Assembly: GCA_022703565.1 (NCBI GenBank)
Contig: JAKLDK010000004.1
Location: forward strand, 1 to 45,603
Source of the DNA: Candidatus Omnitrophota bacterium
GTDB lineage: Bacteria > Omnitrophota > Gorgyraeia > Zapsychrales > Zapsychraceae
Reading direction: 5' to 3'
DNA length: 45,603 nt
Shown here: positions 2,993 to 5,138 of the stretch, piece by piece
Numbering within the stretch: position 1 is the stretch's first letter
How the letters are laid out: every line of letters starts with the position of its first letter
Made by a program: the position numbers and the translations under genes
The notes under the pieces: model-generated
Database searches by the model: none
What the model was told of the DNA's origin: nothing
The model's input: the letters and a program-made list of their open reading frames with translations, nothing else

Positions 2993-3020
2993 TTGCCAAT
3001 TCAAATACTCCTGCTATAAT
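2993..3020 (+). promoter_or_regulatory. Probable promoter of the repeat/tRNA-Arg transcript
   Basis: TTGCCA at 2993-2998, 16-bp spacer, TATAAT at 3015-3020. It lies upstream of both foldback repeats, so the predicted transcript (start about 3027) would carry both hairpins in its 5' leader before the tRNA. Read by eye. Confidence 0.5.
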
Positions 3021-3063
3021 TATCCAGTTAATTTTTTTAAATTGTTATTTGTTATGTAAAAAG

Positions 3064-3216
3064 GAAAATTGCGCCTGGCATTGATTTCTCTAGTGTTAAA
3101 TTAGAGGTAATCAATACAAGTGCGCATTTCATCAAGTATAAAGATTATAGAAAAATGCGCCTGCATTGATTTCGCTAGTGTTAAATTAAAGGGAATCAAT
3201 ACAAGTGCACATTTTC
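3064..3216 (+). repeat. Two tandem foldback repeats mimicking the tRNA-Arg ends
   Basis: Unit 1 is about 3064-3130 and unit 2 about 3151-3216, separated by 20 bp. Each begins with an A-rich stretch plus TGCGCCTG, runs into ATTGATT, has a central CTAGTGTTAAAT loop, then AATCAAT-ACAAGT and GCGCATTT or GCACATTTT. The ATTGATT/AATCAAT arms and the TGCGC/GCGCA ends pair in each unit; unit 1 has an extra inner CTCTA/TAGAG stem that unit 2 has lost. Unit 2 shares the 13-mer AAAAATGCGCCTG exactly with the tRNA gene's 5' flank and acceptor strand (3234-3246). The motif recurs at about 85 and 83 bp, with the tRNA as the third unit. Confidence 0.8.
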
Positions 3217-3239
3217 CTCTGAAAACATTAAGGAAAAAT

Positions 3240-3313
3240 GCGCCTGTAGCTCAATTGGATAGAGCATTTGCCTACGAAGCAAAGGGTTAGAGGTTCGAAT
3301 CCCCTCAGGCGCA
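3240..3313 (+). tRNA. tRNA-Arg (anticodon ACG)
   Basis: The 7-bp acceptor stem GCGCCTG (3240-3246) pairs with CAGGCGC (3306-3312), followed by discriminator A. The D arm (TAGCTCAATTGGATAGAGC), the anticodon stem TTTGC/GCAAA with loop CTACGAA giving anticodon ACG, and the T arm with GGTTCGAATCC are all intact. CCA is not encoded. The acceptor stem can extend outward (AAT before, ATT after). The wobble A34 is the known substrate of TadA, whose gene starts 31 bp downstream. Confidence 0.95.
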
Positions 3314-3344
3314 TTAATTATTTAAGCTTTAATAACATATAATT

Positions 3345-3833
3345 ATGTTCACAAAAGAAATTCCTCCGGAAGAGATAATTCATATCCATTTTATGCGGGA
3401 AGCGATTAAGCAAGCCAAGATTGCTTATGAGCATGATGAAGTGCCAGTCGGAGTAATCATAACTCATCAGAATAAGATAATTGCCAAAGCCCATAACCAA
3501 GTAGAAATGCTTAAAGATCCTACTGCTCACGCCGAGATGATTGCTATTACTCAAGCAACAAGTTCAATGTCTTCAAAATGGCTTTATGATTGCAATATGT
3601 ATGTTACCCTTGAGCCTTGCAGCATGTGTGCCGGGGCATTAGTGTTAGCGCGAATAAAAAATCTTTATTTCGGGGCGAAAGACAAAAAGACTGGGGCTTG
3701 CGGCTCTGTTTTTAACATCCCGGAATCTGAAAAAGTAAATCACAAAATTGAAGTTAAAACGGGCTTATTAGAAGCAGAATGCAGCGAAATAATGACCAAT
3801 TTCTTTAAATCCAAACGAAACATTGCCAATTAA
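3345..3833 (+). CDS. tadA: tRNA-specific adenosine deaminase TadA
   Basis: Deaminates A34 to inosine in tRNA-Arg(ACG), allowing one tRNA to read several CGN codons. The 162-aa protein shows the cytidine-deaminase fold motifs: H62-A-E64 (TAHAEMIAI), with E64 the proton shuttle, and P-C92-S-M-C95, which with H62 forms the zinc site. The later VNHKIEVKTGLLEAEC stretch is typical of bacterial TadA. Length is normal if translation begins at Met17 (3393, MREAIKQAKIAYEHDEVPVG); neither that ATG nor the one at 3345 has a strong ribosome-binding site, so the start is uncertain. Encoded directly after its substrate tRNA gene and could be read from the same transcript. Confidence 0.93.
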   Translation: MFTKEIPPEEIIHIHFMREAIKQAKIAYEHDEVPVGVIITHQNKIIAKAHNQVEMLKDPTAHAEMIAITQATSSMSSKWLYDCNMYVTLEPCSMCAGALVLARIKNLYFGAKDKKTGACGSVFNIPESEKVNHKIEVKTGLLEAECSEIMTNFFKSKRNIAN

Positions 3834-4859: not shown

Positions 4860-5047
4860 TTGGAAACTCCGCCAAATAAATATATTTGGCGAGGCAGGTA
4901 TTTGTCATGATATTGTCGAAGTAATTGGAGAGTCCGCCAAATCAGTAAATTTGGCGAGACTTGTTGTAGAATATTTAGAGGAATTAATTGGAGAGTCCGC
5001 CAAATGAGTAAATTTGGCGAGACTTCTCCAAAATTTCTAAAGAAATT
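4860..5047 (+). repeat. Three tandem foldback repeats preceding tRNA-Ser
   Basis: Units start at 4860 (A), 4925 (B) and 4988 (C), with spacings of 65, 63 and then 60 bp to the same word at the tRNA (5048). Each contains TCCGCCAAAT, a short loop, then ATTTGGCGAG, forming a hairpin with one bulge. Units B and C begin TTGGAGAGTCCG; the tRNA gene begins TTGGAGAGGTGCCG, so the first six tRNA bases GGAGAG plus two flanking Ts are reproduced. In unit C the outer TTGGAGA also pairs with TCTCCAA (5025-5031), imitating an acceptor stem. Unit A is the most diverged (TTGGAAACTCCG). Confidence 0.8.
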
Positions 5048-5054
5048 TTGGAGA
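5025..5054 (+). repeat. Perfect palindrome running into the tRNA-Ser acceptor strand
   Basis: TCTCCAAAATTTCT (5025-5038), two As, then AGAAATTTTGGAGA (5041-5054): a 14-bp perfect stem with a 2-base centre. The last five bases of the right arm (GGAGA) are tRNA-Ser nucleotides 1-5, so in the precursor RNA this hairpin and the acceptor stem are mutually exclusive. Confidence 0.85.
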
Positions 5055-5138
5055 GGTGCCGGAGCGGCTGAACGGAGCTGCCTGCTAAGCAGTTGACCTG
5101 GGTAACTGGGTCCTCGGGTTCAAATCCCGACCTCTCCG
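5050..5138 (+). tRNA. tRNA-Ser (anticodon GCT)
   Basis: Acceptor strand GGAGAGG (5050-5056) pairs with CCTCTCC (5131-5137), discriminator G at 5138. The anticodon stem GCTGC/GCAGT encloses the loop CTGCTAA, anticodon GCT (codons AGC/AGU). The long variable arm (GACCTGGGTAACTGGGTC) is typical of class II serine tRNAs, and the T arm holds GGTTCAAATCC. CCA is not encoded. Its 5' five bases are shared with an upstream palindrome, and a partial copy of its 3' end lies 133 bp downstream. Confidence 0.95.

Follow-up and report, generated by a model that had tools for sequence, protein, structure and literature searches.

Tandem units upstream of tRNA-Arg(ACG) and tRNA-Ser(GCT)

The analyzed stretch of DNA (the window, 45,603 nucleotides) is contig C120 of a 1.87 Mb MAG of Candidatus Omnitrophota, the genome G000. 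Two repeat units of ~60 nt each lie upstream of an intact tRNA-Arg(ACG) gene, which is followed by a tadA-like ORF. The features of this locus are:

2993–3020, plus strand: putative sigma-70-like promoter 5' of the Arg array (TTGCCA-16-TATAAT, TG before the −10; consensus match only)
3070–3129, plus strand: Arg unit 1, with the copy of the tRNA-Arg 5' end TGCGCCTG (3070–3077), an internal hairpin and a right arm
3120–3129, plus strand: right arm of Arg unit 1, GTGCGCATTT, bulged and complementary
3156–3214, plus strand: Arg unit 2, with the copy of the tRNA-Arg 5' end (3156–3163), an internal hairpin and a right arm
3205–3214, plus strand: right arm of Arg unit 2, GTGCACATTT
3239–3314, plus strand: intact tRNA-Arg(ACG)
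3345–3833, plus strand: tadA-like tRNA adenosine deaminase ORF, just 3' of tRNA-Arg(ACG)

Each Arg unit opens with the first 8 nt of tRNA-Arg, TGCGCCTG. This word occurs at four sites in the 45.6 kb, namely in the two units (3070–3077 and 3156–3163), at the tRNA 5' end (3239–3246) and on the minus strand in the acceptor 3' strand (3306–3313). Only 0.85 occurrences are expected, and none of 100 shuffled sequences contained four copies. The copied block of unit 2 starts at 3151 and corresponds to tRNA-Arg positions −5 to +8, so that the 13-mer AAAAATGCGCCTG is found at 3151–3163 and 3234–3246, exactly where the original prediction had placed it. The near copy that it reported in unit 1 exists as AAAATTGCGCCTG, at 3065–3077 and not at 3066–3078. 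Of the two spacings claimed between copy starts, 83 bp was correct and the other is 86 bp instead of 85 bp. The remaining parts of the two units (3078–3129 and 3163–3214) are 92% identical.

Both units are predicted to form hairpins that close on the copy of the tRNA end, with z-scores of −5.6 and −3.0 (0 of 200 shuffles), which bears out the proposal that tandem foldback units copying the tRNA 5' end precede tRNA-Arg. The units had also been described as closing with tRNA-like ends on both sides. This holds only for the 5' end, because the 3' arm forms the bulged complement to the 5' copy (AAGTGCGCATTT versus CAGGCGCAT); a copy of the tRNA 3' end is thereby ruled out for these arms. The promoter proposed to precede the array was located at 2993–3020, with 11 of 12 hexamer matches, in a stretch where 2.2 promoter-like sites are expected by chance. 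Other strong hairpins in the window (fold scan, −17 kcal/mol) were mostly located in coding sequence or were terminator-like and followed genes.

A second array, composed of three units (4860–5033) with hairpins different from those of the Arg array, precedes tRNA-Ser(GCT):

4860–4897, plus strand: Ser unit 1, diverged, TTGGAAAC and hairpin CGCCAAAT..ATTTGGCG
4925–4962, plus strand: Ser unit 2, copy of the tRNA-Ser 5' end TTGGAGAG (4925–4932) and hairpin
4988–5033, plus strand: Ser unit 3, copy of the tRNA-Ser 5' end TTGGAGAG (4988–4995), hairpin and right arm CTTCTCCAAAA
5049–5139, plus strand: intact tRNA-Ser(GCT)

For the right arm of Ser unit 3, two pairing partners are possible, the left arm of the same unit and the tRNA-Ser 5' end. 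The latter pairing, within 5023–5056, would extend over ~15 bp and include the flank of the tRNA. Such an arm could act as an acceptor-stem block or as a switch.

tRNA genes flanked by copies of their own ends

In the window's genome, 9 of 40 tRNAs are preceded, at a distance of at most 300 nt, by a copy of their own 5' end. The figure is 5 of 30 for a congener, 8 of 38 for a member of the same family and 2 of 37 for a member of the same order. When tRNAs were swapped as a control, 0.08–0.30 upstream 5' copies were obtained per genome (0.23 for the window's genome). Copies of 5' ends downstream of the tRNA numbered 0–1 per genome over these four genomes, with 0 in the window's genome. Own 3' ends were copied downstream of 2, 3, 5 and 0 tRNAs in the same order of genomes, with 0.14–0.66 in the swapped control. 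Own-end copying beyond chance is thus established in these genomes, and the Arg foldback repeats belong to a phylum-wide Omnitrophota pattern of tRNA-end copies beside intact tRNAs. Taxonomic breadth rests on the tRNAs in TadA loci, among which copies occurred in Omnitrophota and in two Calditrichota records. In these two records (L095 and L121), outside Omnitrophota, own-5'-end copies with hairpins precede tRNA-Gln, tRNA-Glu and tRNA-Ser.

Of 31 3' copies, 20 have their break point in the T-loop, including 17 that break after nucleotide 55 or 56, whereas the T-loop makes up 9% of positions. The corresponding count for 5' copies is biased because it omits copies shorter than 10 nt; those of just 7–9 nt break at the acceptor/D junction, which is not a SegB-like site.

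At some loci, an intact tRNA has the two halves of a further copy on either side, giving the appearance of one tRNA nested in another. This was the case for Thr in genome G009, for Arg in L148, L151 and L155, and for Gly(tcc) in the window's genome. At the Thr locus (L163, G009:C61), nucleotides 1–35 of tRNA-Thr(tgt) are located upstream and nucleotides 36–76 downstream of the intact tRNA-Thr, with the split in the anticodon. At the Gly locus (L010, G000:C151, 300–540, minus strand), a tRNA-Gly(tcc) is interrupted in its anticodon loop by a second, intact tRNA-Gly(tcc), and the insert has the ends TCCCGC/GCGGGA. The outer copy differs from the inner one in its acceptor and T stems, where both sides have changed, as though it is or once was functional. 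At L012 (1500–1810), the 3' half of tRNA-Lys(ctt) (nucleotides 29–47 and 58–75) is located downstream of the tRNA, with several palindromes inserted.

Integrative elements that target tRNA genes have att sites that duplicate tRNA ends, and the att sites of tyrosine recombinases give T-loop and anticodon-loop break points and downstream 3' fragments. The partial copies beside intact tRNAs and their break points could therefore be remnants of such elements, that is, ordinary integrase scars, and partial tRNA genes left behind by integrated genetic elements are known in prokaryotes (PMC9897764). However, the inserts measure only ~50–500 bp, and in those that were translated no integrase was recognized and at most a GIY-YIG protein is encoded. 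Hairpins are integral to the units, which form arrays of two to four, and upstream 5' copies are at least as frequent as downstream 3' copies. We consider an origin as integrase scars decidedly unlikely.

Variable occurrence of units among related genomes

The tadA-like ORF served as a syntenic anchor for comparing the presence and absence of Arg arrays. At the syntenic tRNA-Arg(acg)-tadA locus, 5' copies were present in L049, L053, L063, L067 and the window, and absent in L050, L054–L057, L060 and L073. Of the two congeners, only one has units at tRNA-Ala(ggc), two in number; at Arg(tct) and Phe, both have units, with different hairpins. The inner hairpins thus vary from tRNA to tRNA, and also between congeners at one and the same tRNA. 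Immediately 5' of tRNA-Ser(gga), the congener has TGGAGAGGTG and a 53-bp hairpin segment; 10 nt of this unit copy the 5' end of the tRNA. In the window's genome, the same flank joins the tRNA directly and the unit is absent. The Ser(gga) comparison was made by direct reading, as the MAFFT alignment misplaced the gap there.

Scattering of the units over loci without tRNA genes had been named as evidence against a tie to tRNAs. The Arg unit had no significant copy elsewhere in the window's genome or in 23 relatives. One unit family, that of the Ser(gga) unit, is common to different loci, and its significant matches are located solely beside tRNA genes. The units resemble MITE and REP repeats in being short, palindromic and non-coding, but unlike them are not dispersed, and a repeat of that type was rejected for these genomes.

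GIY-YIG endonuclease genes between tRNA fragments and intact tRNAs

Larger inserts encode a GIY-YIG endonuclease of 80–110 aa between the tRNA fragment and the intact tRNA. This arrangement was found for Lys (L259), Asp (L261), Gln (L286), Ala (L197), Ser (L069), Arg (L063) and Asn (L265). Five tRNA-adjacent proteins from the window's genome and its relatives matched Pfam PF01541 above the curated cut-off. With PHROG, one of the five GIY-YIG proteins gave weak homing-endonuclease matches and another a weak generic endonuclease match; for two, the group I intron endonuclease model scored below its cut-off. The window itself contains no GIY-YIG gene. The sole intact small GIY-YIG gene of its genome is a 98-aa ORF at L247 (1468–1764, minus strand), directly downstream of tRNA-Gln(ttg) and before a glmU-like gene.

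The main bridge from the window's ORF-less units to the nuclease-bearing ones is provided by two mixed arrays. The Gln array of L286 begins with an ORF-less unit (TTGCCCTG, hairpin, TGGGCAA) of the same build as the window's units, after which come two GIY-YIG units that encode identical proteins. In the Ala array of L197, an ORF-less unit is likewise followed by a GIY-YIG unit.

A phylum-wide search with the L286 GIY-YIG protein showed that 17 of the best 30 loci have a tRNA within ~500 bp, compared with about 3% by chance according to our estimate. The four closest of these 30 relatives, all more than 50% identical, are located at tRNA-Gln, and three of the four carry a Gln fragment. On a tree of 62 GIY-YIG domains, tRNA adjacency required 7 changes, compared with 20.9 after shuffling (0 of 300 as low), and tRNA isotype 18 changes, compared with 21.0 (1 of 300 as low). 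The clades are structured by tRNA adjacency and partly by isotype. Only part of the family is linked to tRNAs, because about half of the small domains in this tree have no nearby tRNA.

Repeat units and nuclease genes might also have accumulated passively, by slippage or unequal crossing-over at tRNA genes, with the hairpins as by-products and the GIY-YIG genes as passengers settling near tRNAs. Whole units are in places duplicated exactly in tandem, as seen for 88 bp at Ser in L128 and for the two 96-aa GIY-YIG units of L286. It is quite unlikely as the explanation of the pattern, given that break points favor the T-loop, that the GIY-YIG genes separate the fragment from the intact gene, and that their clades track tRNA adjacency.

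Folding of the units and a possible role in the tRNA leader

The original prediction had seen acceptor-stem mimics that may be decoys or substrates for RNase P or RNase Z. More broadly, the units could be functional RNA elements of the pre-tRNA leader that regulate tRNA maturation, and their position between a promoter-like site and the tRNA suits such a role. The folding survey was confined to units with short copies, as the class of copies >13 nt, which contains neighboring intact tRNAs, was left out. In the survey, 26 of 37 units outranked at least 95% of their shuffles in folding, and pairing of the copied end within its own unit was more frequent than in shuffles (0.68 versus 0.57, p 0.001). 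On these grounds, the hairpins are, as far as folding models go, real structures. In the Arg array, the predicted folds show the copied ends in competition with the acceptor stem of the tRNA, an effect that the units' right arms lessen. The acceptor stem formed with a probability of 0.58 in the native leader, 0.17 with the right arms shuffled and 0.99 with both shuffled.

However, this shielding did not extend to leaders in general. It was observed in 20 of 45 (p 0.33), and hairpin shielding as a general rule was rejected; for copies of ≤10 nt, a subset chosen post hoc, the value is 14 of 18. A shielding role is suggestive at best. Moreover, the presence of units varies at the same syntenic tRNA and between congeners. 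A leader element gives no account of the downstream 3' copies or of the GIY-YIG genes, and because tRNA-specific copying includes both, the decoy or processing-substrate idea is unsupported. We regard a function of the units as leader RNA as unlikely. The other proposal, which sees the units as relics of tRNA-anchored amplification, has good support and applies generally beyond the Arg site, so the earlier interpretation is partly supported overall.

Comparison with known systems

The closest known system is SegB of phages T4 and T6. SegB is a free-standing GIY-YIG homing endonuclease. It cleaves tRNA genes internally at RAWTSGAAC, whose reverse complement, GTTCSAWTY, is the T-loop consensus, and drives tandem amplification of the tRNA together with segB via homologous recombination (PMC13096335); in T4, segB is located between tRNA genes (PMC2988022). 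Like SegB, the Omnitrophota elements pair a gene for a small putative GIY-YIG enzyme with tRNA genes. A GIY-YIG domain is encoded by the five tRNA-adjacent ORFs and is lacking from the window's ORF-less units, and the close association with tRNA genes is evident from the 17 of the best 30 loci and from the tree. Unlike SegB, which resides in a phage genome and amplifies whole tRNA-segB segments, the Omnitrophota elements are chromosomal and contain duplicated tRNA ends. They also differ in their hairpins, ORF-less arrays and partly isotype-linked clades; in the portions of the SegB papers available, neither tRNA-end copies fused to hairpins nor ORF-less arrays are reported (PMC13096335; PMC2988022).

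Group I introns in bacterial tRNA genes are likewise mobile DNA, some with homing endonuclease genes (PMC3984707). The Omnitrophota elements resemble them as DNA inserted at tRNA genes, in some cases with an endonuclease gene, but introns rely on splicing, whereas these elements preserve the tRNA by duplication beside the insert. A group I intron was rejected for the window, where Rfam at the gathering threshold gave only three tRNAs and no group I ribozyme.

The arrays are also similar to the rtT repeats of E. coli tyrT, which are tandem, lie downstream of the tRNA and copy its 3' end. No link of rtT repeats to a nuclease is known, nor any spread over many tRNAs. No publication on bacterial tRNA-flanking GIY-YIG elements was found among the open-access papers searched.

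tRNA-anchored insertions as the preferred explanation

The pattern points to a selfish insertion family that targets tRNA genes and leaves them working. GIY-YIG-driven insertion or amplification is the best-supported inference as to its origin. A GIY-YIG protein would cut tRNA genes in conserved loops, as the phage enzyme does. Recombinational repair would then insert or amplify the unit and duplicate the tRNA end, and only events that retain one intact tRNA would survive. Units may later lose the nuclease gene and remain as hairpin arrays, such as that at 3070–3214. The window's Arg array, which is without a nuclease gene, can be read as an ORF-less member or relic. It is probably a small ORF-less member of a GIY-YIG-driven, tRNA-gene-anchored insertion family that is common in Omnitrophota.

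Some observations speak against GIY-YIG-driven insertion. The window lacks a GIY-YIG gene, and the one intact small gene of this kind in its genome is at tRNA-Gln(ttg). Where intact tRNAs adjoin the elements, their T-loop is uncut, and the model gives no explanation for such self-immunity. The inner hairpins are variable, unlike those of a conserved mobile element. The 5' copies of 7–9 nt end at the acceptor/D junction, and about half of the small GIY-YIG genes examined have no tRNA close by.

A broader reading, to which we give an even chance, is that Omnitrophota, and perhaps Calditrichota, harbor selfish chromosomal elements whose tiny, isotype-specialized GIY-YIG nucleases insert into tRNA genes and rebuild them by end duplication, giving rise to ORF-less arrays of hairpins next to a large fraction of the tRNA genes. 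If so, the tRNA genes of a whole bacterial phylum would be under invasion by minimal selfish elements consisting of a ~100-aa nuclease and hairpins, for which copying of the tRNA end would solve the problem of hitting an essential gene. Isotype-specific nucleases would be predicted. Such elements would account for one class of tRNA fragments, and for unusual tRNA leaders, in MAGs. They would be the chromosomal equivalent of the SegB-driven amplification of tRNAs in phages.
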